Assembly: GCA_025458915.1 (NCBI GenBank)
Contig: JALORL010000009.1
Coordinates: 1 to 33,866 of the forward strand
Length of the DNA stretch: 33,866 nucleotides
Direction of reading: 5' to 3'
Source of the DNA: Hydrogenophaga sp.
Lineage (GTDB): Bacteria > Pseudomonadota > Gammaproteobacteria > Burkholderiales > Burkholderiaceae_C
The translations under genes and the position numbers were made by a program. Every line of letters starts with the position of its first letter. The stretch's first letter is position 1. The notes beneath the pieces were generated by a model. That model saw only the letters and a program-made list of their open reading frames with translations, searched no databases and was not told the origin of the DNA. Positions 2,520 through 21,829 of the stretch are shown here, piece by piece.

Positions 2520-2575
2520 GTGTCACCAAAGCTTCATGGCAATGCCACGGAAGGTTCACCGCACCTTCCCAGAAT
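2520..2575 (+). promoter_or_regulatory. Candidate PhoB-dependent promoter of olsB
   Basis: Four half-sites are spaced exactly 11 bp apart: GTGTCAC (2520), GCTTCAT (2531), ATGCCAC (2542) and GGTTCAC (2553). Each has TCA or CCA at the same position as the PhoB half-site CTGTCAT. A -10 hexamer, CAGAAT (2570-2575), starts 10 nt after the last half-site. No -35 element is visible, as expected for PhoB promoters where the box replaces it. The individual half-sites are degenerate, so the phasing is the main support. The implied transcription start (about 2582) makes the ATG at 2584 nearly leaderless and favours initiation at 2644. Confidence 0.6.
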
Positions 2576-2601
2576 GGGGACTCATGAACAAACACACCAA
2601 A

Positions 2602-2625
2602 GCCCACCCGGCAGTTGCGGTGGGC
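2602..2625 (+). other. Leader hairpin before olsB ribosome-binding site
   Basis: GCCCACC (2602-2608) pairs perfectly with GGTGGGC (2619-2625) around a 10-nt loop. The hairpin lies in the proposed 5' leader, 5 nt before the GAGGGAG ribosome-binding site at 2631-2637. It may affect translation of olsB, but nothing in the sequence shows that it does. The rest of the 2329-2643 intergenic region holds only the PhoB-type promoter and a possible leftward -10. Confidence 0.4.
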
Positions 2626-2643
2626 GCTCCGAGGGAGATGCTC

Positions 2644-3507
2644 ATGAACACCGGCGCCATCGACCTGCCGTTGCTGCAAAACAGTTCAACGATGGGCTCT
2701 GCGATCCCACCGATCCAGCTCATACCCACGTCACCGCGCGCTGCAGCCCTTCCGGAGGCAGCGCGCACCGGCGGCATTGAGGTGTCATGGGCGCGGCATC
2801 TGGACGAAGTTCGGGAAGCCCAACGGCTGCGGTACGCGGTGTTCGCCGGGGAAATGGGAGCCAATCTGCCCCAAACGTTGCCCGGCCACGATGTGGATCT
2901 GTTTGACGATTTCTGCGAACACCTGCTCGTGCGCGACGCCGACACCCGCGAGGTGATTGGCACCTACCGCGTGCTCACGCCCGTGCAGGCGCGCCGCGTG
3001 GGCAGCACCTACAGCGACACCGAGTTCGACCTCACCCGCCTGCGCCTCATCCGCGACCGCATGGTGGAGCTCGGCCGCAGCTGTGTGCATGCCGATCACC
3101 GCCACGGCGGCGTGATCATGGCCCTGTGGGGCGCTTTGGCCGAATTCATGGTGCGCAACCAGCTCGACACCATGGTGGGGTGCGCCAGCATGCCGATGAA
3201 TGGACAGGGTTCCAGCGGTGCCTTGGCAGCGGGTCATGCGGCTGCAAGCATCTGGCGCAAGGTGAGCCAGACGCACATGGCCTCCATCGAGTTTCATGTG
3301 CGCCCGCGCCTGCCCTTGCCCATCGAGCGCCTGGACAGCTCGCTGGAGCTGGAGCCTCCGGCGCTCATCAAAGGCTACCTGCGCCTGGGCGCCAGGGTGC
3401 TCGGCCCACCGGCCTGGGACCCGGACTTCAACACCGCCGACCTGCCCATGATGATGCGCATTGCCGACCTTCCGCCCCGCTACCGCAAGCACTTCCTGGG
3501 GGCGTGA
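2644..3507 (+). CDS. olsB: GNAT-family L-ornithine N-acyltransferase (ornithine lipid synthesis)
   Basis: OlsB transfers a 3-hydroxy fatty acid from acyl-ACP to ornithine, giving lyso-ornithine lipid, the first step to phosphate-free ornithine lipids. The 287-residue protein is close to the length of the Sinorhizobium OlsB as I recall it. The acyltransferase core starts near residue 47, with RLRYAVFAGEMGA (62-73), VDLFDDFCEHLLV (84-96), IGTYRVL (105-111) and ELGRSCVHADHRHGGVI (142-158) as the signature blocks. ATG 2644 has GGAG 6 nt upstream. ATG 2638 and ATG 2584 are in-frame alternatives, the latter adding 20 residues and carrying its own GGGGA. The stop overlaps the start of the metallophosphoesterase gene (ATGA), implying translational coupling. 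A PhoB-type promoter lies upstream. The partner O-acyltransferase gene olsA is not in this window. Confidence 0.85.
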   Translation: MNTGAIDLPLLQNSSTMGSAIPPIQLIPTSPRAAALPEAARTGGIEVSWARHLDEVREAQRLRYAVFAGEMGANLPQTLPGHDVDLFDDFCEHLLVRDADTREVIGTYRVLTPVQARRVGSTYSDTEFDLTRLRLIRDRMVELGRSCVHADHRHGGVIMALWGALAEFMVRNQLDTMVGCASMPMNGQGSSGALAAGHAAASIWRKVSQTHMASIEFHVRPRLPLPIERLDSSLELEPPALIKGYLRLGARVLGPPAWDPDFNTADLPMMMRIADLPPRYRKHFLGA

Positions 3508-4412
3508 TGAAGACGGCCTTCGAAGCGCTGGGAGGCTGGAGTTTCAAAGGGGTTCCACCGGCCGGCTTCGATACCGCCAGCATCAGCCCTGGGGCCGGGG
3601 ACGATGCCATTCATGAAGACGGCGAGCGCGCCACCTACCGCGCGGTGTTCATCTCCGATCTGCACCTGGGCACCGCGGGTTGCCAGGCGCATGCCTTGCT
3701 GGACTTCCTGAAGCACCACCCCAGCCAGTCGCTGTATCTGGTGGGTGACATCATCGACGGCTGGCAGTTGCGCCGGAAGTGGTTCTGGCCACAGTCGCAC
3801 AACGACGTGGTGCAGAAATTGCTGCGGCGCGCGCGCAAGGGCTGCCGGGTGGTGTTCGTGCCGGGGAACCACGACGAATTTGCCCGCCAGTTCCACGGCC
3901 ACAGCTTCGGCGGCATAGAGGTCAGCAACGAAGCCGTGCACACCACTGCCGATGGCCGGCGCCTTTGGGTCGTTCACGGTGACCATTTCGACGGCGTGAT
4001 CCAGTGCGCGAAGTGGCTGGCCTACGTGGGCGACAACCTGTACGAATTCACGTTGCGCCTGAACCGGCACCTGAATTCGCTGCGGGCCCGTCTGGGGCTG
4101 CCGTACTGGTCGCTATCGCAGTACCTCAAGCACAAGGTCAAGACAGCCGTGAACTACGTGAGCGACTTTGAAGGCGCAGTGGCTTCCGAAGCGCGCCGTC
4201 AGGGCTACCACGGCGTGGTCTGCGGCCACATCCACCGCCCGGAAATGCGGCTGATCGGCGACACCCTGTACTGCAACGACGGCGACTGGGTGGAGAGCCT
4301 GTCCGCGCTGGTGGAGCACGCCGATGGCCGGCTGGAACTGGTGCATTGGGCCCATCCGCTGGCGCAGGACATGCGTGTCGACGAAGCGCAGGGCGCAGTC
4401 GAAGCGCGGTAG
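3507..4412 (+). CDS. Calcineurin-like metallophosphoesterase, PlcP/LpxH-like
   Basis: This 301-residue protein has all the metal-binding blocks of the family: SDLHLG (D51, H53), GDIIDGW (D81), PGNHDE (N121, H122), VHGDHFD (H157) and GHIHRPE (H241, H243). Automatic annotation would probably call it UDP-2,3-diacylglucosamine diphosphatase. However, the blocks LYLVGDIIDGW, WPQSHNDVVQKLLR and LPYWSLSQYLK match, from memory, the PlcP phospholipase C of rhizobia and marine bacteria. That enzyme cuts phospholipids to diacylglycerol during phosphate starvation. Coupling to olsB by a 1-nt stop/start overlap, and the PhoB-type promoter ahead of olsB, support the PlcP reading; substrate is inferred. The first 44 residues are an extra N-terminal extension without recognisable motifs. 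ppk follows after 156 nt from its own promoter. Confidence 0.82.
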   Translation: MKTAFEALGGWSFKGVPPAGFDTASISPGAGDDAIHEDGERATYRAVFISDLHLGTAGCQAHALLDFLKHHPSQSLYLVGDIIDGWQLRRKWFWPQSHNDVVQKLLRRARKGCRVVFVPGNHDEFARQFHGHSFGGIEVSNEAVHTTADGRRLWVVHGDHFDGVIQCAKWLAYVGDNLYEFTLRLNRHLNSLRARLGLPYWSLSQYLKHKVKTAVNYVSDFEGAVASEARRQGYHGVVCGHIHRPEMRLIGDTLYCNDGDWVESLSALVEHADGRLELVHWAHPLAQDMRVDEAQGAVEAR

Positions 4413-4438
4413 TCAGGCCGGTTCGCAGCCCGCGGGGA

Positions 4439-4494
4439 TCTTCACCCGAACGCCACAAAACTGTCACACAAAAGTCATGCGTCCGTTGAATAAT
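4439..4494 (+). promoter_or_regulatory. Candidate PhoB-dependent promoter of ppk
   Basis: Four half-sites at exact 11-bp intervals are visible: TCTTCAC (4439), ACGCCAC (4450), CTGTCAC (4461) and AAGTCAT (4472). The last two form a near-consensus Pho box (CTGTCAC, 4-nt spacer, AAGTCAT). The -10 hexamer AATAAT (4489-4494) starts 10 nt after the box. Transcription would begin near 4501, giving ppk a leader of about 68 nt. Confidence 0.75.
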
Positions 4495-4568: not shown

Positions 4569-6650
4569 ATGAGCGCCAGCAGCCAGCCCAACAAGATTCC
4601 CTTCCTGGACCGCGACCACAGCATCCTGGCCTTCAACGAGCGGGTGATGGACTGGGCGCGCCGGCCCGACGTTCCGCTGCTGGAACGCTTGCGCTACCTC
4701 ACCATCGTCTCCAGCAATCTGGACGAGTTCTTCGAGGTGCGCATGGCCCCGCACCTCAACGCGCTGAAAGCGAACGAGCAGCGCGGCATCTACACCGCCC
4801 AGACCCACCAGCTGATTGCGGAAAAGATCCACCTGTTGGTGGCCCAGCAGTACGCCATCTACAACGACGAACTGCTGCCGCTGCTGGAGAAGAAGGGCAT
4901 CAAGCTCATCACCCACGGTGAGCGCAACCCGCGCCAGCGGCGCTGGATCAAGGACTACTTCAGCCGCGAGGTGCAACCCCTGCTGCTGCCCATCGGGCTG
5001 GACCCGTCGCACCCGTTTCCCCAGGTGGCCAACAAGTCGCTGAACTTCATCGTTCGGCTGGCGGGCAAGGATGCGTTCGGCCGGGAAAACGAAATTGCCA
5101 TCGTGAAGGTGCCGCGCATCCTGCCGCGCTTTTTCCGCATGCCGCCGGTGAAAGGCTCCAAGCAGGCGCACTTTGTCTCCATCTCCAGTCTCATCCGCTC
5201 TCATCTGGGCGACCTGTTCCCTGGGCGCCAGGTGACCGAGTTTTCGCAATTCCGCGTGACGCGGCACTCCGACCTGGCGGTGGACGAAGAAGAAGTGAAG
5301 AACCTGCGCACCGCCCTGCGCAAGGGGTTGCAGCAGCGCCACTACGGCGAGGCCTTGCGGCTGGAGGTCACTGCCGGTTGTTCAGAATACCTGTCGGGCT
5401 TCCTGCTGGCGCAGTTCGGACTGCCGGAACAGGCGCTCTACCGCGTTCCGGGTCCGGTGAACCTGGTGCGGCTGAACCAGCTGATCGACCAGGTGGAAGC
5501 GCCCGCGTTGCGGTTCGAGCGCTACAACGCCGGTTGGCCCGCACAGCTCACGCCAGGGCAGTCGTTCTTCGAACGGTTGCAGCAGGGCGACGTGTTGATC
5601 CACCAGCCTTATGAGAGCTTCGACGCGGTGCTGGCCTTCCTGCGCGAGGCGGTGGAAGACCCGCAGGTGCTGGCCATCAAGCAGACCATCTACCGCGCGG
5701 GGGCGCGCTCCGAGTTGATGAACCTGCTGCGCGAGGCGGTGCGGCGCGGCAAGGAAGTCACCGCTGTGGTGGAACTCAAGGCCCGCTTCGATGAAGAGGC
5801 GAACATCAACTACGCCGAGCGGCTGGAGTCGGTGGGGGCGCAGGTGGTGTATGGCGTGGTGGGCCTGAAAACCCACGCCAAGATGCTGCTCATCACCCGG
5901 CGCGAAGACGGTCAGCTTCGGCGCTACGCCCACATGTCCACCGGCAACTACAACGCGTCCACCGCGCGCCTGTACACCGACCTGAACTACCTCACGGCGG
6001 ACGAAGCCCTCACCGCCGACCTGGACCAGATCTTCCTGCACCTGGCGAGCCAGAACCGGCTGCCCAGGCTGAACAAGGCGCTCATTGCGCCGTTTCACCT
6101 GCACAAGGCCATGCTGGACAAGGTGGACGCCGCCGCCGCGGCGGCCAGGGCAGGCAAGGAGGCGCGCATCATCCTCAAGATGAATGCGCTCACCGACGAG
6201 CCGCTGGCCCGTGCGCTGGCCCATGCGTCCCAGCAAGGCGTGAAGATCGACATCATCGTGCGCGGCGCCTGCATCCTGCCTGCCCAGGTGCCCGGCATCA
6301 CCGACAACGTGCGGGTGCGTTCCATCATCGGCCGGCTGCTGGAGCATTCGCGGGTGTACTACTTCCGGGTCGATGGCGTGGACGACCTCTGGCTCTCCAG
6401 TGCCGACTGGATGAACCGCAACATGCTGCGTCGCCTGGAGCTGGCCTGGCCGGTGACCGATCCGGGTCTGCGCGCCCGCATCATGGACGAATGCCTGTCG
6501 TCGTACCTGCACGACAACAAGGACGCCTGGTTGCTCCAGCCCGACGGTCAATATGTGCCTGCCGGCAGCGGTGGCACAGGAGGCAAGGGCCGCGCTGCCC
6601 AGCACTCGGCGCAGTCGGCCCTGATGGCGCGCTACGGCAGCAAGGGCTGA
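4569..6650 (+). CDS. ppk: Polyphosphate kinase 1
   Basis: Ppk1 reversibly builds inorganic polyphosphate from the terminal phosphate of ATP. At 693 residues it matches the usual length. The N-terminal domain opens with FLDRDHSILAFNERV and contains SSNLDEFFEVRM. The catalytic half contains IYRAGARSELM, the phosphorylated histidine in GLKTHAKML (H436) and the second essential histidine in LLEHSRVYYFR (H593), close to E. coli H435 and H592. The last 30 residues are a low-complexity Gly/Ala tail. The ATG at 4569 is chosen because the conserved N-terminus starts about ten codons later; its ribosome-binding site is weak. The gene has its own PhoB-type promoter, so it should be induced with pstS. 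sixA follows after 14 nt. Confidence 0.97.
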   Translation: MSASSQPNKIPFLDRDHSILAFNERVMDWARRPDVPLLERLRYLTIVSSNLDEFFEVRMAPHLNALKANEQRGIYTAQTHQLIAEKIHLLVAQQYAIYNDELLPLLEKKGIKLITHGERNPRQRRWIKDYFSREVQPLLLPIGLDPSHPFPQVANKSLNFIVRLAGKDAFGRENEIAIVKVPRILPRFFRMPPVKGSKQAHFVSISSLIRSHLGDLFPGRQVTEFSQFRVTRHSDLAVDEEEVKNLRTALRKGLQQRHYGEALRLEVTAGCSEYLSGFLLAQFGLPEQALYRVPGPVNLVRLNQLIDQVEAPALRFERYNAGWPAQLTPGQSFFERLQQGDVLIHQPYESFDAVLAFLREAVEDPQVLAIKQTIYRAGARSELMNLLREAVRRGKEVTAVVELKARFDEEANINYAERLESVGAQVVYGVVGLKTHAKMLLITRREDGQLRRYAHMSTGNYNASTARLYTDLNYLTADEALTADLDQIFLHLASQNRLPRLNKALIAPFHLHKAMLDKVDAAAAAARAGKEARIILKMNALTDEPLARALAHASQQGVKIDIIVRGACILPAQVPGITDNVRVRSIIGRLLEHSRVYYFRVDGVDDLWLSSADWMNRNMLRRLELAWPVTDPGLRARIMDECLSSYLHDNKDAWLLQPDGQYVPAGSGGTGGKGRAAQHSAQSALMARYGSKG

Positions 6651-6664
6651 AGGGCGGGGCAGAC

Positions 6665-7147
6665 ATGGATCTCATTCTCTGGCGGCACGCCGAGGCACAC
6701 GAACATCCCGACCCGCTGCACGGTGCGCAGGGCGATGCACTGGACCTCGCCCGCAAGCTCACGCTCCGTGGGGAAAAGCAGGCCAGCCGCATGGCAGCCT
6801 GGCTGGACCGCCAGCTGCCGGAGGGGGCGCGCATCTTCAGCAGCCCGGCGGCGCGCTGTGAACAAACGGCCATGGCACTGGGACGCAAGTTCAAGCTGCG
6901 CGATGAACTGGTGCCAGAGGGCGACCCGCTTGAGCTGCTCCAGGTGGCCCAGTGGCCCGAAGGCCGTGCGCCCGTGTTGGTGGTGGGCCACCAGCCCACA
7001 CTGGGACGCGTGATCGCCCGGTTGCTGCATCTCAGCGAAGAGGAATGTTCCGTCAAGAAGGGCGCGGTCTGGTGGCTGCGCTACCGCCAGCGCGGCTCCT
7101 CCGGTCAGACGGTGGTGGTGACAGTACAGACCCCCGAGCTGCTGTAG
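6665..7147 (+). CDS. sixA: Phosphohistidine phosphatase SixA
   Basis: SixA is a small histidine phosphatase that removes phosphate from phosphohistidine, classically on HPt domains or PTS proteins. The 160-residue protein starts LILWRHAEA, the RHG-type catalytic motif with the phosphate-accepting H8. It has SSPAARCEQTA near residue 58 and a second catalytic histidine in VVGHQPTLG (near 109). Length and layout agree with E. coli SixA. The gene begins 14 nt after ppk and is probably co-transcribed with it. Possible local substrates are the HPt domain of the hybrid kinase at 9082-12036, or phosphotransfer proteins elsewhere; this is speculation. It converges with the H1-like gene, 35 nt away. 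Confidence 0.92.
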   Translation: MDLILWRHAEAHEHPDPLHGAQGDALDLARKLTLRGEKQASRMAAWLDRQLPEGARIFSSPAARCEQTAMALGRKFKLRDELVPEGDPLELLQVAQWPEGRAPVLVVGHQPTLGRVIARLLHLSEEECSVKKGAVWWLRYRQRGSSGQTVVVTVQTPELL

Positions 7148-13303: not shown

Positions 13304-14788
13304 CTACCGCACCTCGGCGGAGAACTTCCAGCTGGTTTTCTGCCACGCAATCACTTCCTCACCGATCAACCAGGCTGACTGTGGATAGCGGCGCGCCCAG
13401 CCCGGATGGGTGACGAGCTTGAAGGCGCCTGACTTGTAGCTCAGACGGATGGACTCGTACTCCGGCATCTGGCGGGCGTGGCAGAGCAGCGTGGCCAGCC
13501 GCAGGCACATCAGTTGCTTGGCAAACAGCTCGTCCCCCAGCGATTGCTCGAGCTTGCGCAACTTGCCACGCTGGCCCAGCACCAACTGGCTCATCCGGTG
13601 CAGTTCGGGAAAGGAAAAGCCGGGCGCATCCACGTTGTCGAGGATGTAGGCGCCGTGGTGGTACGACCGGTCGTGGGAGATGTGCGTGCCGATTTCATGC
13701 AGCCGCGCCGCCCAGGCCAGCTTCCGGGAATACCGCTCGTTCTGGGCATCCACCGCTGCCACCTGGGCAAACAGGGCGGTGGCCACGGTGCTCACGCGCT
13801 TGGCCTGGGCTTCGTCGATCGAGAACCGTTCCGCCAGCCAGCGCACCGTGCGTTCGCGCACATCGCCGCCATCGGTCTCGCGGTCGATCAGGTCGTACAG
13901 CGCACCCTGGCGCAGGGCGCCCTGGGCCGGGAGCAGTTGTTGGATGTCGAACAGGTCGACGATGGCGCACAGCACGCTCAACCCGCCCGCGATGACCGGA
14001 CGGCGGTCGTCCTTGAGGCCTTCCAGCCGCACCAGGTCCACATTGGATGCTTTGGAAAAGCGATCCTCCAGCCAGGCCAACCCGGACCGGGTGATGACAC
14101 CCGACGCCCAGCCATTGGCGGCCAGGATGTCCGCCACCGCGCCCACGGTGCCCGACGAGCCGTAGGCCGCATTCCATTCGGTGGGCGGAAAGCTGTCCAG
14201 CGCCTCGTCCAGCACGGCCTTGGCCGCCACCTCGGCCGTCTTGAATGCCGTGGGAGTAATCTGCCCGCGTGGGAAATACTTGTTCGACCATGCCACGCTG
14301 CCCAGCCGGTACGACTCCATGCGGTGGGCCTTGTAGCCTTCTCCCAGGATCATTTCGGTGGAGCGGCCACCAATGTCGAACACCAGGCGCTTCTCGTCGG
14401 ATTGCGGCAGCAGCCGGGACACCCCCTGGTAGATCAGCCGGGCCTCTTCCTGGCCGGCAATCACTTCGATGGCAAAACCCAGGATCTTCTGGGCCTGTTG
14501 CAGGAACTCCTCGCGGTTGCGGGCCTCCCGCAGCGTCTGGGTGGCCACGGCACGCACCTGCTGCTTCTTGAAGCCATGCAGGCGCTCGGCAAACCGGGCC
14601 AGGCAGTCCCAGCCGCGCTCCATGGCGGCCTGGCTGAGCACCTTGTTTTCGTCCAGCCCGGCGCCCTGGCGAACGGTTTCCTTGATGTACTCGATGCGCT
14701 CGATGTGGCCCGAGTGGTAGCGGCCAATTTCCAGCCGGAAGCTGTTGGACCCGAGATCGATGGCGGCCAGAAGGGTACCGTTTTGCAT
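13304..14788 (-). CDS. ppx: Exopolyphosphatase / Ppx-GppA phosphatase
   Basis: Ppx removes terminal phosphates from polyphosphate, and family members can also hydrolyse pppGpp. The 494-residue protein starts with the ASKHA-fold block LLAAIDLGSNSFRLEIG. VRAVATQTLREARN, GQEEARLIYQGV, VFDIGGRSTEMILGEG and AYGSSGTVGAVADIL follow as the nucleotide and phosphate loops. The C-terminal half has the HD-like helical region (AARLHEIGTHISHDRSYHHGAYIL), typical of long Ppx proteins. The ATG at 14788 places the conserved block at residue 6; the ribosome-binding site is weak. It is divergent from pstS with a 281-nt gap. A clear PhoB box facing ppx was not found, so its expression may differ from that of ppk. 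Confidence 0.95.
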   Translation of the reverse strand: MQNGTLLAAIDLGSNSFRLEIGRYHSGHIERIEYIKETVRQGAGLDENKVLSQAAMERGWDCLARFAERLHGFKKQQVRAVATQTLREARNREEFLQQAQKILGFAIEVIAGQEEARLIYQGVSRLLPQSDEKRLVFDIGGRSTEMILGEGYKAHRMESYRLGSVAWSNKYFPRGQITPTAFKTAEVAAKAVLDEALDSFPPTEWNAAYGSSGTVGAVADILAANGWASGVITRSGLAWLEDRFSKASNVDLVRLEGLKDDRRPVIAGGLSVLCAIVDLFDIQQLLPAQGALRQGALYDLIDRETDGGDVRERTVRWLAERFSIDEAQAKRVSTVATALFAQVAAVDAQNERYSRKLAWAARLHEIGTHISHDRSYHHGAYILDNVDAPGFSFPELHRMSQLVLGQRGKLRKLEQSLGDELFAKQLMCLRLATLLCHARQMPEYESIRLSYKSGAFKLVTHPGWARRYPQSAWLIGEEVIAWQKTSWKFSAEVR

Positions 14789-14995
14789 GCGTGGCGAGGG
14801 TGACCGACAACGGCACCCGGGAAAACCAGAATCGTGGGAAGAGCCGGAATTGTGACGCATTGGGGCGTTTTGCCTTGTCCAGACACCCGCTCCGGTCCTT
14901 GTTCGCGGGTTTCCAACCGGCTTCGGGGCGGCTTCCGGCGCCCGATGGCGCTCTGGTGGCGCCGGGTTTCGCGCATATTCGTGACAACTCTGCGC

Positions 14996-15029
14996 ATGTC
15001 ACAAGGCTGTCACATTGCCTGCCTACAGT
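14996..15029 (+). promoter_or_regulatory. PhoB-dependent promoter of pstS
   Basis: ATGTCAC (14996) and CTGTCAC (15007) are 11 bp apart and form a strong Pho box. The -10 hexamer TACAGT (15024-15029) starts 10 nt after it, the standard arrangement for PhoB-activated promoters. The rest of the 14789-15069 gap, which also has to hold the ppx promoter, shows no other clear element. Confidence 0.85.
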
Positions 15030-15069
15030 GCACCCCAGGCGATTTCCCAACCCCCTGAGAGGACCCTTC

Positions 15070-16104
15070 ATGATCACCAAACGCACTCTGCTCAAGTCCG
15101 TGGCTGCTGCCACCTTCGCCGCCCTGGCTGTGGGCACCGCCCACGCCGCCGACATCACTGGTGCCGGCGCCACCTTCCCATTCCCCATCTACGCCAAGTG
15201 GGCGGAGATGTACAAGGCCCAGACCGGTACCGGTCTGAACTACCAATCCATCGGTTCCTCCGGCGGCCTGCGCCAGATCCGCGCCAAGACCGTGGCTTTC
15301 GGTGCCTCGGATGCCCCCGTGAGCGGGGCCGACCTCGACAAGGACGGCATGGTGCAGTTCCCCGCCATCATCGGCGGCACCATTCCCGTGTTCAACCTGG
15401 AAGGCTTCGCCCAGGGCGAAGTGCGCATCACCGGCCCGGTGCTGGCCGAGATGTTCCTGGGCAAGATCACCAACTGGAACGACCCCAAGATCGCAGCCCT
15501 GAACCCCGGCAAGACCTTCCCCAACCAGGCCGTGACCGTCGTGCACCGCGCCGACGGTTCGGGCACCACCTTCAACTTCACCGACTACCTCAGCGTGGTG
15601 AGCAAGGACTGGGCGGACACCGTGGGCAAAGGCGCGGCCGTGAAGTGGCCCGCACCCACCTCCGTGGGCGGTCGTGGCAACGAAGGCGTGGCCGCCAACG
15701 TGAGCCGCACCAAGGGCGCCATCGGCTACGTGGAATACGCCTACGCCAAGAAGAACAACATCCCGTACATGTCCATGCAGAATGCCGACGGCAAGTTCGT
15801 GCGACCGGATGACAAGTCGTTTGCCGCTGCCGCTGCCGGTGTGGACTGGTTCAGCGTGCCCGGCATGGGCGTGTCCATGGTCAACGCCAAGGGCGCTGAC
15901 AGCTGGCCCATCAGCACCGCTTCCTTCATCCTGATGTACAAGGAGCCGACCAACAAGGCCGAATCTGCCGAGGTGCTGAAGTTCTTCGACTGGGCCTTCA
16001 AGAACGGCGGCGCCGCGGCGGTGGAGCTGGACTACGTGCCGATGCCGGCAGCCGTGACCGATCAGATCCGCACCCGTGTGTGGTCGCAGATCAACAACAA
16101 ATAA
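15070..16104 (+). CDS. pstS: Phosphate ABC transporter, periplasmic substrate-binding protein
   Basis: PstS captures inorganic phosphate in the periplasm and hands it to PstCA. The 344-residue precursor has a signal peptide (KRTLLKSVAAATFAALAVGTAHA, cleavage after about residue 26). The mature protein starts ADITGAGATFPFPIYAKW. Phosphate-contacting blocks are visible: GSSGGLRQI, GASDAPV and the RADGSGTTFNFTDYL loop. The ATG at 15070 follows GAGAGG. A strong Pho box drives it. A hairpin with a T-run follows its stop, which would let PstS be made in excess over the membrane parts. Confidence 0.97.
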   Translation: MITKRTLLKSVAAATFAALAVGTAHAADITGAGATFPFPIYAKWAEMYKAQTGTGLNYQSIGSSGGLRQIRAKTVAFGASDAPVSGADLDKDGMVQFPAIIGGTIPVFNLEGFAQGEVRITGPVLAEMFLGKITNWNDPKIAALNPGKTFPNQAVTVVHRADGSGTTFNFTDYLSVVSKDWADTVGKGAAVKWPAPTSVGGRGNEGVAANVSRTKGAIGYVEYAYAKKNNIPYMSMQNADGKFVRPDDKSFAAAAAGVDWFSVPGMGVSMVNAKGADSWPISTASFILMYKEPTNKAESAEVLKFFDWAFKNGGAAAVELDYVPMPAAVTDQIRTRVWSQINNK

Positions 16105-16128
16105 TCAGAGGCGGAACGCCCGGAACAA

Positions 16129-16163
16129 CCCATCGGCAGGCGCTGGCTGGCCGGTGGGTTTTT
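16129..16163 (+). terminator. Intrinsic terminator/attenuator between pstS and pstC
   Basis: CCCATCGGC (16129-16137) pairs with GCCGGTGGG (16150-16158) in a 9-bp stem (one T-G pair) with a 12-nt loop, followed directly by TTTTT. This is a typical intrinsic terminator, 24 nt after the pstS stop. Partial read-through would serve pstCAB-phoUBR. Confidence 0.8.
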
Positions 16164-16214
16164 GCAGTTGAATGCCTTTCAATGACTGTCACACATTGAC
16201 CCGGAGGGGGTCCG

Positions 16215-17246
16215 ATGAACACCACCACAGCCAACGCCGACAGCATGTCCAGTCCCATTTCCCCGTTCAGCAGCAGCTCCGGGTCCGACCAGCGAAGTGA
16301 CGCATCCATGCGCGCCATTGCCAGCAGGGCGCGCATCCAGGACATCGTTTTTCACCGGCTCACCCAGTCGTTTTCCCTGCTGGTGCTGATCGCACTGGTG
16401 GGCATCATCGTTTCGCTGTTCTACAACGCCTGGCCCACCTTCCAGAAGTTCGGCCTGGCATTCGTCACCACCATTGAGTGGGACATCATCAACGAGGAGT
16501 ACGGCGCGGCGATCGCCATCGTCGGCACGCTGCTGAGCGCCGGCATCGCCATGGTGATCGCCGTCCCGCTGGCCTTTGGCATTGCGCTGTTCCTCACCGA
16601 AACCTGCCCGGTCTGGCTGCGCCGGCCGCTGGGTACGGCCATCGAGTTGCTGGCTGCCGTGCCGTCCATCATCTACGGCATGTTCGGCCTGTTCGTGTTC
16701 GCGCCCATCTTTGCCGACTACATGCAGGTGCCGCTGCAACAGGTGCTGGGTGGCCTGCCGCTGGTGGGCTGGCTGTTCGGCGGGGCTCCCAACGGCCTGG
16801 GCATCATGGCCGCCGGCGTCATCCTGGCGTTCATGGTGCTGCCGTTCATTGCCGCGGTGATGCGCGACGTGTTCGAGATCACCCCGCCCATCCTGCGCGA
16901 GTCGGCCTACGGCCTGGGGTGCACCACCTGGGAGGTGGTGCGCAAGGTGGTTCTGCCCTACACGCAGAAGGGCGTCATTGGCGGGATCATGCTCGGCCTG
17001 GGCCGGGCGCTCGGCGAAACCATGGCCGTCACGTTCGTGATCGGCAACGCCAACCGCATGCCCACGTCGCTGTTCTCCCCGGGCACCTCGATTGCTTCGG
17101 TGCTGGCCAACGAATTCGGTGAAGCGGCTGACCTGCACTTCAACACCCTGTTCGCCCTGGGTTTCCTGCTGTTCTGCATCACATTCCTGGTGCTGGCGAT
17201 GGCCAAGTGGATGATCATCCGGGCCGAAAAAGCCAAGGGCAGCTGA
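16215..17246 (+). CDS. pstC: Phosphate ABC transporter permease PstC
   Basis: PstC is one of two membrane subunits forming the phosphate channel. The 343-residue protein has about six hydrophobic segments. The permease loop that docks to PstB is [29 protein letters not shown] (EAA motif), followed by [17 protein letters not shown]. The first 45 residues are Ser-rich and hydrophilic ([12 protein letters not shown]), longer than in many PstC proteins. The start at 16215 is supported by GGAGGGGG upstream; a shorter start at 16308 is possible. It follows the pstS terminator and lies 39 nt before pstA. Confidence 0.96.
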
Positions 17247-17285
17247 TCCTGCATATCCAACCCAGAAGACCAAGACGAGAACGCC

Positions 17286-18140
17286 ATGGAAATGAACAAG
17301 AGCCTTTATGCCAAGCGCCGGCGGGCCAACTGGATCGGTCTCACCCTGTCGATGTCGGCCATGGCCCTGGGCCTGACCGTGCTGCTTTGGATCCTGTGGG
17401 TGCTGTTCTCCAACGGCATTGCCGGGCTGGACAGCAACATCTTCACCGCCGATACCCCCGCGCCGGGTACCGAGGGCGGTGGTTTGCGCAATGCGCTGCT
17501 GGGCAGCCTGATGATCGTGGGTCTGGCGGTGGTGGTGTCCACGCCCATCGGCATTCTGGCGGGCGTGTACCTGGCCGAGTACGGGGACAGCAGCAAGACC
17601 GCCGAGGTCACGCGCTTCGTCACCGACATCATGCTGTCGGCGCCTTCCATCGTGCTGGGCCTGTTCGTGTACGCAATAGCCGTGGCCACGGTGGGCAACT
17701 TCTCCGGCTATGCCGGGAGCCTCGCACTGTCGCTGATTGCCATTCCGGTGGTGGTTCGAACCACCGAGAACATGCTGCGCCTGGTGCCGGGCAGCCTGCG
17801 CGAAGCCGCCTTTGCCCTGGGCGCACCGCGCTGGAAGGTGGCCACCATGGTGACGCTGCGCGCGGCCAAGAGCGGTGTGATCACCGGCCTGCTGCTGGCG
17901 GTGGCCCGCATTGCCGGTGAAACTGCACCGTTGCTGTTCACGGCGCTGAACAACCAATTCTTCAGCACCGACATGGGCGGTCCCATGGCCAACCTGCCGG
18001 TGGTGATCTTCCAGTTCGCCCTCAGCCCGTACGACAACTGGATCCGCCTGGCCTGGAGTGGTGCACTCATCATCACCATGACCGTGCTGGTGCTCAACAT
18101 CCTGGCGCGGGTGTTCTTCCGCGAAAAAGTGAAAGCCTGA
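17286..18140 (+). CDS. pstA: Phosphate ABC transporter permease PstA
   Basis: PstA is the second permease subunit of the phosphate importer. The 284-residue protein has six probable membrane helices. The EAA loop is [29 protein letters not shown], followed by [20 protein letters not shown], typical of PstA. The N-terminus is short and basic ([10 protein letters not shown]). The ATG at 17286 is used; a second ATG two codons later is equally possible. It is 39 nt after pstC and 54 nt before pstB, clearly in one operon. Confidence 0.96.
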
Positions 18141-18194
18141 TCCCGCAGGCGCTGCACCCCCAGAAGCAACAACAAATACCGTCAAGGAAAAGCC

Positions 18195-19016
<822 letters not shown>

Positions 19017-19083
19017 TACCGTCAGGCGTTGTCCGATCCGCGCCGCCAACCCCAAACCATTCGCATCCCAGGGGAGTCATCCA

Positions 19084-19785
19084 ATGAGCGACAAACACAT
19101 TTCCAGCCAGTTCGACGCCGAACTCAACTCCATTTCCACCCACGTGCTTGAAATGGGTGGCCTCGTAGAATCGCAGCTGCACCAGGCAGTTCATGCCCTG
19201 GTGCACATGAGTCTGGAGTCGGCCGAGCAGGTGATTGCCAACGAAGCCCGCATCAACCAGATGGAGCTTCAGATCGATCACGAAATCATTTCCACCATCG
19301 GCCGCCGGCAACCCACCGCCCGCGACCTGCGCTTCCTCATGGCCATTTCCCGCACCACCCAGAACCTGGAACGGGCAGGCGACGAGGTGGCCCGCATCGC
19401 CCGCATGGTCAAGAGCATCATCAACAACGGTACGCCACGCAATCTGCCCATTTCGGAGTTGCGGCTGGCGGCCGACCTCGCTTCTGCGCTGCTGAGAAAA
19501 TCGCTGGATTCCTTTGCCCGGCTGGACACGTCCATGGCCGTGACCATCATCAAGCAGGACAATGAGATCGACGACGAATACAACGGCTTCCTGCGCAAGC
19601 TCATCACGTACATGATGGAAGACCCCCGCACCATCACGCCCAGTCTGGACCTGCTGTTCCTGGCCAAGTCCATCGAACGTGTGGGCGACCATGCCAAGAA
19701 CATCGCCGAGCAGATCATCTTCATTGTCAAGGGTGAAGACATCCGCCACACCTCGGTCGACAAAGTGGAGTCGGTGGTCCGATGA
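19084..19785 (+). CDS. phoU: Phosphate signalling regulator PhoU
   Basis: PhoU links the Pst transporter to PhoR and keeps the Pho response off when phosphate is plentiful. The 233-residue protein is all-helical with two PhoU repeats. Each carries the metal-site signature: RTTQNLERAGDEVARIARM in the first and LAKSIERVGDHAKNIAEQI in the second. The start is supported by CAGGGGAG upstream of the ATG at 19084. Its stop overlaps the phoB start (ATGA), implying coupled translation. Confidence 0.96.
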   Translation: MSDKHISSQFDAELNSISTHVLEMGGLVESQLHQAVHALVHMSLESAEQVIANEARINQMELQIDHEIISTIGRRQPTARDLRFLMAISRTTQNLERAGDEVARIARMVKSIINNGTPRNLPISELRLAADLASALLRKSLDSFARLDTSMAVTIIKQDNEIDDEYNGFLRKLITYMMEDPRTITPSLDLLFLAKSIERVGDHAKNIAEQIIFIVKGEDIRHTSVDKVESVVR

Positions 19786-20513
19786 GAAAACTCCCGCGCG
19801 TTCTGGTGGTGGAGGACGAGCCTTCCATTGCCGAGCTGATCGCCGTGAATCTCCGCCACAACGGCTTTGCCCCTACGGTGGTGTTCGACGGCCTGGCGGC
19901 ACAACGCGAGGTCGATGCGGTCCTGCCCGACGTCATCCTGCTCGACTGGATGCTGCCCGGGGAAAGCGGCGCCGCGCTGGCCCGGCAATGGCGCAAGAAC
20001 GAACGCACCCGCACGGTTCCCATTCTCATGCTCACCGCCCGCAGCGACGAGTCCGACAAGGTGCAGGGGCTGGACGCCGGCGCCGATGACTACATCACCA
20101 AGCCCTTTTCGACGCAGGAACTGCTGGCGCGCATCCGGGCTGTGCTGCGCCGCCGCGCCCCCGAGATCGTCAACGATTCGGTGCAGGTGGGCGAACTGGC
20201 GCTGGACGCAGCCACCTACCGCATCACGTTCCGGGGGGCCGAGCTGAAGGTCGGACCCACCGAATTCAAGCTGCTGCACTACCTCATGAAGCATGCAGAA
20301 CGCGTGCACACCCGTGGTACGCTGCTCGACAAGATCTGGGGCGACCATGTCTTCATCGAGGAGCGAACCGTGGATGTGCATGTCAAGCGTTTGAGGGAAT
20401 CCCTCGGTGAAGCCGCTGCCATGGTGGAGACCGTGCGCGGAGCGGGTTACCGGCTCACGGCCTTGAACACCAGCACCCGAGGGGCTCAGGCCTCGCCCAG
20501 CTCCAGCGCATGA
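19782..20513 (+). CDS. phoB: Phosphate regulon response regulator PhoB
   Basis: PhoB activates phosphate-starvation genes by binding Pho boxes. The 243-residue protein has a receiver domain with VLVVEDEPSIAELI, the phosphoacceptor D55 in VILLDWMLPG, LMLTARSDE and ITKPF. The C-terminal winged-helix DNA-binding domain follows, with VGPTEFKLLHYLM, LLDKIWG and RTVDVHVKRLRESL. A short Ser/Thr-rich tail of about 15 residues follows the winged helix. It overlaps phoU upstream and phoR downstream, both by ATGA. The three PhoB-type promoters in this window are its probable targets. Confidence 0.97.
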   Translation: MRKLPRVLVVEDEPSIAELIAVNLRHNGFAPTVVFDGLAAQREVDAVLPDVILLDWMLPGESGAALARQWRKNERTRTVPILMLTARSDESDKVQGLDAGADDYITKPFSTQELLARIRAVLRRRAPEIVNDSVQVGELALDAATYRITFRGAELKVGPTEFKLLHYLMKHAERVHTRGTLLDKIWGDHVFIEERTVDVHVKRLRESLGEAAAMVETVRGAGYRLTALNTSTRGAQASPSSSA

Positions 20514-21829
20514 CCCGCCGGGCCATCGAACTGCTGCTCCTCGTGGCCCTGGGAGCGGTGGCCGGGTGGATCCGGGGAACCGAGGGCTGGACCTTTGGCG
20601 GAGCACTCGCTGGCGCACTGGCGTGGAGCGTGATCGACGGTCTTCGGGCCCGGCGCGTCCTGCACTGGCTCAACAAGGCTGACCCTGCGCGCGCGCCGCA
20701 CATGCACGGCACCTGGGGCGAGGTGGTGGAACGCAGCCGCAAGGCCTTTCGGAAGCTGGAGAAAAAGGCCGCCAACAGCGACGCCCGACTGGAAGACTTT
20801 CTCGCTGCCATACAGGCCTCACCCAATGGCGTGGTGCTGCTGGACGCGGCCGGCCGCATCGAATGGTGCAACCTCACTGCGGCCAACCAACTCGGCTTTG
20901 ATCCTCAGCGCGACCTTGGTCAGTACATCCGCAACCTGGTGCGCCACCCCACGTTCACGGCCTACATGGCATCGGGGCAGTTCCAGCACGAGATCCAGAT
21001 CGATGGTCCCGGGGTTCGCCCGTCCCAGCCGAGCAAGATCCTGTTGCAGATCCATCCCTATGGCAAGAAGCGAAAGCTGCTGCTCTCGCGCGACGTCACT
21101 GCGGTGCAACTTGCAGAGGCCATGCGGCGTGACTTCGTGGCCAATGTGTCGCACGAAATCCGAACGCCGCTCACCGTACTCAGCGGCTTCGTGGAAACCC
21201 TGCAGAACATTCCCCTGGAAGAAGCCGACCGCAACCGCTACCTCGGGCTCATGAGCCAGCAGGCCCAGCGCATGCAGACGCTGGTCAGTGATCTGCTCAC
21301 TCTGTCCCGCCTGGAAGGCAGCCCGGCACCGGGCCAGGGCGAATGGATCGACAGTGGCGAACTGCTGGAGCATGTGGTGCAGGAGGCCAGGGGTCTGTCG
21401 GAGGTGATTGCCCAGCCTCCCCATGACATTGCTGCCCTGGACAATGCGTCGATCTGGGTGGCCGGCGTGAAAACCGAACTGCTCAGCGCCATGTCCAATC
21501 TGCTGAGCAACGCCGTGCGTTACACCCCGGGCGGCGGCACCATCCGTGCGCACTGGGCGCTGCGTGCCGACGGCTCCGGCGAATTTTGCGTTGCCGACAC
21601 GGGTCCCGGCATTGCCGAAGAACACATTCCCCGCCTGACCGAACGCTTTTACCGGGTGGACCGTAGCCGCTCCCGGGAAACCGGCGGAACCGGTCTGGGA
21701 CTGGCCATTGTCAAGCACGTCATCCAGCGGCACGGCGGGCAACTGGAGGTGGACAGCACCGTGGGAGAAGGGACGCGCTTCATGATGGTGTTGCCCGCTT
21801 CCCGCATTCGGGTGCATCCCAGGGGATGA
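20510..21829 (+). CDS. phoR: Phosphate regulon sensor histidine kinase PhoR
   Basis: PhoR phosphorylates PhoB when phosphate is scarce and dephosphorylates it otherwise. The 439-residue protein starts with two close membrane helices (about 5-21 and 28-44) and no real periplasmic domain, as usual for PhoR. A charged linker and a PAS domain (about 93-200, ASPNGVVLLDAAGRIEWCN) follow. The HisKA box is [19 protein letters not shown] (H215). The ATPase domain has NLLSNAVRYTPGGG, VADTGPGI and GGTGLGLAIVKHVI. It is the last gene of the pst-pho operon; the next gene is convergent. Confidence 0.97.
   Translation: MTRRAIELLLLVALGAVAGWIRGTEGWTFGGALAGALAWSVIDGLRARRVLHWLNKADPARAPHMHGTWGEVVERSRKAFRKLEKKAANSDARLEDFLAAIQASPNGVVLLDAAGRIEWCNLTAANQLGFDPQRDLGQYIRNLVRHPTFTAYMASGQFQHEIQIDGPGVRPSQPSKILLQIHPYGKKRKLLLSRDVTAVQLAEAMRRDFVANVSHEIRTPLTVLSGFVETLQNIPLEEADRNRYLGLMSQQAQRMQTLVSDLLTLSRLEGSPAPGQGEWIDSGELLEHVVQEARGLSEVIAQPPHDIAALDNASIWVAGVKTELLSAMSNLLSNAVRYTPGGGTIRAHWALRADGSGEFCVADTGPGIAEEHIPRLTERFYRVDRSRSRETGGTGLGLAIVKHVIQRHGGQLEVDSTVGEGTRFMMVLPASRIRVHPRG

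Follow-up and report, generated by a model that had tools for sequence, protein, structure and literature searches.

The best-known cases of membrane phospholipid replacement at low phosphate are those of rhizobia, Pseudomonas and marine alphaproteobacteria. In a stretch of 33,866 nucleotides from Hydrogenophaga sp. (GenBank assembly GCA_025458915.1, contig JALORL010000009.1, positions 1 to 33,866 of the forward strand; hereafter the window), olsB, assigned to the first step of ornithine-lipid synthesis, runs directly into a gene for a calcineurin-like phosphoesterase, and the question raised by this locus is what the second enzyme does beside the first. The initial annotation had answered that a PlcP-like enzyme is tied here to ornithine lipid in place of the glycosyltransferase found with it elsewhere. 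Our comparisons of genes and their neighbourhoods lead us to a different answer, which we consider probable: the pair would belong to a PhoB-controlled operon for membrane-lipid replacement, one unit serving two parallel arms, with the sugar-lipid arm depending on an unlinked enzyme.

The genome to which the window belongs, as contig C58, measures 3.19 Mb in 355 contigs, with completeness given as 81%, and the nearest named relatives for the window plcP gene are Hydrogenophaga metagenome-assembled genomes. Three sets were compared with it: 80 loci of named relatives, picked by PlcP similarity; a less biased family sample of 70 genera with one genome each, the window genome included; and an order sample of 110 genomes, again including the window, in which distances between olsB and plcP were worked out by hand. 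The sampled family appears to be the one whose named members include Hydrogenophaga, Acidovorax and further bacteria that are common in fresh water and soil.

Identity of the phosphoesterase

The gene at 3507..4412 (plus strand) encodes a protein that is 49% identical to Sinorhizobium meliloti PlcP and 52% identical to Pseudomonas aeruginosa PlcP (47.1 and 50.0% in a second alignment), as against 30% and 22.7%, in the two alignments, to Escherichia coli LpxH and 25.1% to the LpxH of its own genome. The earlier assignment as PlcP-like is thus borne out, with identities of 47-52% to PlcP genes set against 23-30% to LpxH. For scale, passages of a P. aeruginosa study give 47% identity between PA3219 and the PlcP of MED193 (PMC8528852). 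In a tree of 36 proteins the 34 rows of PlcP type and the two LpxH rows were split with support of 100/100, and a 32-row set that includes both PlcP references was recovered at 94/99; the inner order of the tree is in part uncertain and several branches are long. The grouping proposed as a check therefore places the protein with PlcP and apart from LpxH.

The alternative is that the enzyme is an LpxH-like lipid A enzyme whose position beside olsB is incidental. It can draw on weak matches to two LpxH NCBIfam models (51.5 and 39.9 bits) and on the standard product name in public records. However, these scores lie far under the cut-offs of 134 and 190.35 and are roughly equalled by those of the two reference PlcP genes, from S. 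meliloti and P. aeruginosa; the motif GNHDE stands where LpxH has GNRDF; and a separate LpxH, the other lpxH that was to be looked for in this genome, is present on contig C97 (8035-8712) at 191.7 bits, barely above the cut-off of 190.35. With the tree and the identities also siding with PlcP, an LpxH function is rejected for this gene, and we regard that reading as largely refuted and its probability as very small. The product name is itself instructive. It had been suggested that automatic annotation as LpxH would hide PlcP, and the name UDP-2,3-diacylglucosamine diphosphatase is indeed attached to 24 of 30 listed plasmid relatives (32 records matched), the other six being unannotated at the match.

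Residues D51, H53, D81, N121, H157, H241 and H243 occupy invariant alignment columns and are all present in the window protein; we take them to be metal-site residues. A phmmer search against solved structures gave no match at E up to 1. We conclude that the phosphoesterase is PlcP, with a predicted activity of hydrolysing phospholipids to diacylglycerol.

The standing of the two reference loci as holders of characterised PlcP genes rests on their neighbours and on locus tags. The S. meliloti gene (L085) has an acyl-homoserine-lactone synthase and a LuxR gene as neighbours, which fits what we take to be SMc00171 beside sinRI; its product resembles the window enzyme (47-49% identity, with the same metal-site motifs), but neither olsB nor agt is annotated beside it. 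Downstream of the P. aeruginosa gene, carried on a plasmid (L086), come genes for a family 1 glycosyltransferase and a cyclase, an order that fits PA3219-PA3218-PA3217. The first two are named as PlcP and Agt1 in passages of the P. aeruginosa study (PMC8528852). This plasmid (NZ_CP137508.1, 23367-32080) holds what appears to be a chromosomal plcP-agt piece with its neighbours, and two further P. aeruginosa plasmids have a match of equal identity. On a Pannonibacter phragmitetus plasmid (L115) a distant PlcP-like phosphoesterase (30-34%) adjoins a gene annotated as ceramide glucosyltransferase; this pair may be an equivalent of plcP-agt for sphingolipids.

The olsB-plcP tandem and its probable Pho control

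The product of olsB (2644..3507, plus strand), read as an ornithine N-acyltransferase, matches PF13444, the GNAT acyltransferase domain of OlsB type, at 116.4 bits, and it is the sole PF13444 match in the 81%-complete genome. The start at 2644 is preferred to the alternative ATG at 2584 because of the ribosome site GAGGGAG. Both genes run in the same direction, the olsB stop (3505-3507) and the plcP start (3507-3509) sharing one base in the sequence TGATG at 3505..3509. The overlap reported earlier exists but had been misread as a four-base ATGA; those letters do stand at 3507-3510, but they are not a stretch shared by the two genes. A TGATG or TAATG junction whose start is in frame with plcP, with no intervening stop, occurs at 48 of the 69 tandem loci (the window and 68 named relatives) and is missing from the other 21. 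Because it recurs in 48 of these loci, the one-base stop-start junction is more than chance, and the overlaps suggest translational coupling.

In 68 of the 80 named PlcP relatives, olsB immediately precedes plcP in the same orientation. The family sample puts this into proportion: PlcP occurs in 53 genera, OlsB in 60, both in 50 and the tandem in 22. These 22 form one group on the PlcP tree, requiring a single change (SH-aLRT 83). The survey of olsB neighbourhoods that had been called for thus gives a divided result, in which the tandem is kept across one tree group but is not universal: 28 of the 50 genera with both genes lack it, and in the sole same-genus genome sampled (G067) olsB and plcP lie 1.66 Mb apart. 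In the order sample, the 44 genomes with both genes have them no more than 3 kb apart in seven cases and no more than 10 kb apart in 12, in several different arrangements. The two proteins are often found together: among genera with PlcP, 50 of 53 have OlsB, compared with 10 of the 17 that lack PlcP. The pair is arranged differently on plasmid pMVF16-1 of the alphaproteobacterial Microvirga sp. VF16 (L195), where a match to olsB and a partial one to plcP lie on opposite strands within about 270 bases.

No olsB-plcP unit was described in the titles, abstract openings and passages of the open-licence papers searched. Sebastian et al. (PMC4796936) sort the plcP neighbourhoods of marine bacteria into six types; the passages name btaAB or glycosyltransferases in them and show no olsB type. 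One of these arrangements, the betaine-lipid type plcP-btaAB of Phaeobacter sp. MED193 (PMC4796936), likewise joins plcP to genes for a phosphate-free lipid, but betaine-lipid genes consume the released diacylglycerol and olsB, by established biochemistry, does not. The Pseudomonas olsBA operon, as presented in passages of PMC9804370, shares the ornithine-lipid genes, with olsB next to olsA there and next to plcP here, where the olsA candidate is unlinked (contig C4). According to the portions available of two further papers, a methanotroph has plcP beside agt, with olsA and olsB on separate locus tags (PMC9239053), and PlcP and OlsAB of Pseudomonas putida are PhoBR-dependent and have distant locus tags (PMC5082522).

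Upstream of olsB, a Pho-box-like region at 2520..2574 (plus strand) can be read directly as five 11-base-phased units, GTGTCACCAAA/GCTTCATGGCA/ATGCCACGGAA/GGTTCACCGCA/CCTTCCCAGAA. Its core pair, GTGTCACCAAAGCTTCAT at 2520-2537, has the correct 11-base spacing and agrees with 9 of the 14 specified bases of CTGTCATNNNNCTGTCAT. The relatives are more informative: 24 of 66 olsB upstream regions (window included) reach at least 11/14, where 1.4 would be expected from shuffles, and the same block is visible in four of six aligned relatives (L005, L006, L007 and L030), reading CTGTCATCAAAGTTTCAT in L006 with a score of 12/14. In L008 only a weak version is seen, and the aligned stretch of L004 starts downstream of the block, its site being present in the consensus-score survey. 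Given the relatives' upstream scores and the shared block, the window box is credible, and Pho control of olsB-plcP is likely. Of the PhoB-phased half-sites first proposed, the 11-base spacing stands, with the backing of the relatives and of pst-phoUBR in the same window, but a score of 9/14 taken alone is at chance level. The regions ahead of ppk1, the next gene in the window, score at least 11/14 in 39 of 56 loci (window included), a raw count with no shuffle baseline. A consensus scan of the window found 22 places scoring at least 10, and scores of 10-11 are not confined to the sites ahead of pstS and ppk1.

agt and a second glycosyltransferase

In many relatives the interval of about 1.1 kb between plcP and ppk1 is a gene for a GT4 glycosyltransferase. 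We name it agt because 16 operonic copies grouped with the P. aeruginosa Agt1-type gene in a quick tree (support 97). It comes next after plcP, in the same orientation, in 17 of the 22 tandem genera (in G141 after 846 bases), and at 41 of the 47 tandem loci that have agt the two genes overlap by four bases. Its place in the window is 4413..4460 (plus strand), where locus comparison finds none; agt was likewise not found after plcP in 21 named tandem relatives, which makes 22 of 69 tandem loci. Mapped on the best PlcP tree, presence and absence require at least 11 changes, five of them forced by well-supported branches. Since plcP-agt adjacency is the wider state, shared by P. aeruginosa and most tandem relatives, the ancestral unit was likely olsB-plcP-agt-ppk1, from which agt would have been lost repeatedly, the window lineage included, although the direction of change is one that we infer. 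The idea that PlcP is coupled to ornithine lipid instead of to a glycosyltransferase consequently fails for the group at large, as agt follows in most tandem genera; with agt lost from the ancestral olsB-plcP-agt, the pairing seen here would be a derived state.

This unit is closely comparable to known PlcP-Agt remodelling systems (P. aeruginosa PA3219-PA3218, Methylosinus trichosporium plcP-agt and SAR11 HTCC7211), with which it shares a PlcP orthologue, probable Pho boxes and, in most tandem relatives, agt directly downstream. It differs in that the unit described here opens with olsB and is followed by ppk1, and in that the window lineage lacks agt. Just upstream of olsB, five of 52 fetched plcP loci (L123, L130, L133, L135 and L139) have a homologue of phoX, 38-40% identical to a phoX gene on contig C73 of the window genome, and so form phoX-olsB-plcP-agt-ppk1 clusters.

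It might be supposed that agt has merely moved in the window genome. This was rejected, as a genome search for an unlinked copy returned only a 38-39% relative from another clade (L109). No agt-clade gene was found in the genome of the close relative L004 either, and among the 19 of the 21 agt-less named tandem relatives whose genomes were searched, one (G014) has a closer unlinked copy, at 48%.

The relative found in the window genome, at C73:5700-7013, is the sole one of Agt detected there, and it belongs to a GT4 clade apart from Agt (support 99). It directly precedes phoX (PF05787, 420.7 bits) and lies opposite an Mpo1-like gene, whose Pfam match falls just below its cut-off (C73 3276-7739). 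Its best NCBIfam families are glycosyl-phosphatidylglycerol synthase and diacylglycerol glucosyltransferase, both below their cut-offs, and the first of these is also the best family of Agt. A Pho box scoring 13/14 lies between the glycosyltransferase and the Mpo1-like gene; eight of 14 such intergenic stretches, including that of the window genome, score at least 11 on either strand, where a first-order Markov control predicts 0.2. In 20 other loci of this second type that were fetched, the protein is 46-57% identical to that of C73 and the Mpo1-like neighbour is present in 13. A general link to phoX was discarded, phoX adjoining the gene in the window genome and in none of the 20.

These enzymes co-occur with PlcP. 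Agt, called at 45% identity or more to the query, or the second glycosyltransferase is present in 44 of 53 PlcP genera, and the second type, with or without Agt, in 21, as against none of the 17 genera without PlcP (at E 1e-20). Moreover, the second type is found in 3 of 26 Agt genomes and in 18 of 27 Agt-less PlcP genomes (Fisher 6e-5). These counts raise the possibility, to which we give not quite half of our confidence, that the PlcP pathway of this family has two interchangeable sugar-lipid enzymes: Agt, in an ancestral olsB-plcP-agt operon that joins both replacement-lipid arms, and an enzyme of another GT4 clade that would replace a lost agt, as in the window genome. We know of no description of this second clade from our searches; its genes usually diverge from one for an Mpo1-like membrane protein and have Pho-box-like sites ahead of them. 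P. aeruginosa Agt2 (PA0842), as passages of PMC8528852 portray it, is similarly an unlinked glycosyltransferase with a Pho box.

The same evidence bears on the reading closest to the one first proposed, in which PlcP would work for the ornithine-lipid arm only, in a coupled two-gene operon that holds a fixed ratio and has no sugar-lipid arm. Conservation of the tandem and of its one-base overlap, retention of olsB-plcP where agt is absent, the higher frequency of OlsB among PlcP genera and the failure to find an agt-clade gene in the window and L004 genomes would all suit it. However, agt comes next in most tandem genera, 31 of the 53 PlcP genera lack the tandem with olsB, two thirds of the agt-less PlcP genomes hold the other lipid-type glycosyltransferase, which in the window genome stands beside phoX, and the product of PlcP is not a substrate of OlsB. 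By established biochemistry, PlcP releases diacylglycerol together with a phosphorylated head group. OlsB transfers a 3-hydroxyacyl chain from acyl carrier protein (ACP) onto ornithine, the second chain being added by OlsA; OlsB makes no use of diacylglycerol, and the two steps therefore have no common intermediate. With the junction also missing from 21 of the 69 tandem loci, the fixed ratio is not supported, and we consider an operon devoted to ornithine lipid quite improbable. In our preferred reading olsB and plcP would share a signal and a transcript, and the lipid ratio would not be set by gene order.

Proposed lipid replacement in a phosphate-response region

According to the two-arm model, when phosphate runs out PhoR and PhoB, encoded in the same window, would turn on olsB-plcP. 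PlcP would then remove the phosphate head group from phospholipids, giving diacylglycerol and freed phosphate, while OlsB would begin ornithine lipid from ornithine and acyl-ACP, to be completed by an unlinked OlsA. In the ancestral operon (olsB-plcP-agt, then ppk1) the diacylglycerol would have passed to the adjacent Agt; here it would most likely go to the unlinked C73 glycosyltransferase, the remainder being recycled by diacylglycerol kinase. A gene for such a kinase, DgkA, is present on contig C55.

It is conceivable that PlcP serves phosphate salvage alone. In that case diacylglycerol would be re-phosphorylated by DgkA or degraded, ornithine lipid would be the sole replacement, and the C73 enzyme would have another role. 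The absence of agt here, the presence of DgkA and the plcP genomes with no detected partner glycosyltransferase all accord with this possibility. Against it, the second glycosyltransferase is confined to plcP genomes in the family sample, and in this genome it adjoins phoX and lies behind Pho-box-like sites. We therefore think salvage alone unlikely, though less so than an exclusive link to ornithine lipid.

Several observations weigh against the two-arm model and keep our confidence in it short of firm. It draws on sequence comparison, and the enzyme activities and the fate of diacylglycerol are predictions from gene families and their context. The window olsB box is not distinctive in itself, shuffled upstream regions scoring at least 9 about 69% of the time. 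The two OlsB equivalogs that top the NCBIfam results for the olsB product reach 149.7 and 145.5 bits, under cut-offs of 350 and 320; their names point to Rhodobacter and Brucella types, and the name OlsB rests for this group on family, context and recall. For OlsA, the candidate on C4 has 134.3 bits to its best family, under the cut-off of 300, in a comparison that covered five of the six PlsC-type proteins (L119 was left out). At 81% completeness an unlinked agt could be missing from the assembly, although the L004 genome has none either. The 13/14 box on C73 is oriented to the Mpo1-like gene, the best score in the direction of the glycosyltransferase being 10/14 and that of the phoX site 11. 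Neither the near-exclusion of the two glycosyltransferases nor their co-occurrence with PlcP is corrected for kinship, and a tree-based pairs test on the exclusion had too few pairs. Finally, nine of the 53 PlcP genomes, including that of the tandem genus G178, have neither glycosyltransferase at the threshold used.

PlcP is present in 53 of the 70 family genera, often under the name of a lipid A enzyme, and in one group this gene for phospholipid removal is joined to those of both replacement-lipid arms. The natural loss of agt provides pairs of relatives with and without it, in which one may ask which lipid replaces phospholipid and whether the lipids substitute for one another.

Other genes of the window are in keeping with a phosphate signal. 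Downstream of plcP on the plus strand, a Pho box (CTGTCACACAAAAGTCAT, 4461..4478, 11/14) lies ahead of ppk1 for polyphosphate kinase 1 (4569..6650; TIGR03705, 853.7 bits, above cut-off), followed by a sixA-like histidine phosphatase gene (6656..7147; PF00300, and TIGR00249 at 62.2 bits, under the cut-off of 74.5). The exopolyphosphatase gene ppx (13304..14860, PF02541) is on the minus strand. The operon pstS, pstC, pstA, pstB, phoU, phoB, phoR spans 14791..21829 on the plus strand, with Pfam matches to PBP_like_2, BPD_transp_1 (twice), ABC_tran, PhoU, Response_reg with Trans_reg_C, and PhoR with HisKA. The box ATGTCACAAGGCTGTCAC (14996..15013, plus strand, 11/14) ahead of pstS served as a yardstick from the same genome; the first open frame of pstS runs from 14791 and its true start is probably after this box. 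From the presence of ppk1, the sixA-like gene, ppx and pstSCAB-phoU-phoB-phoR we conclude that the window around olsB-plcP is a phosphate-response region. At the other end of the window, on the minus strand of positions 1-1300, a stop-free frame of 433 codons runs off the start of the contig.

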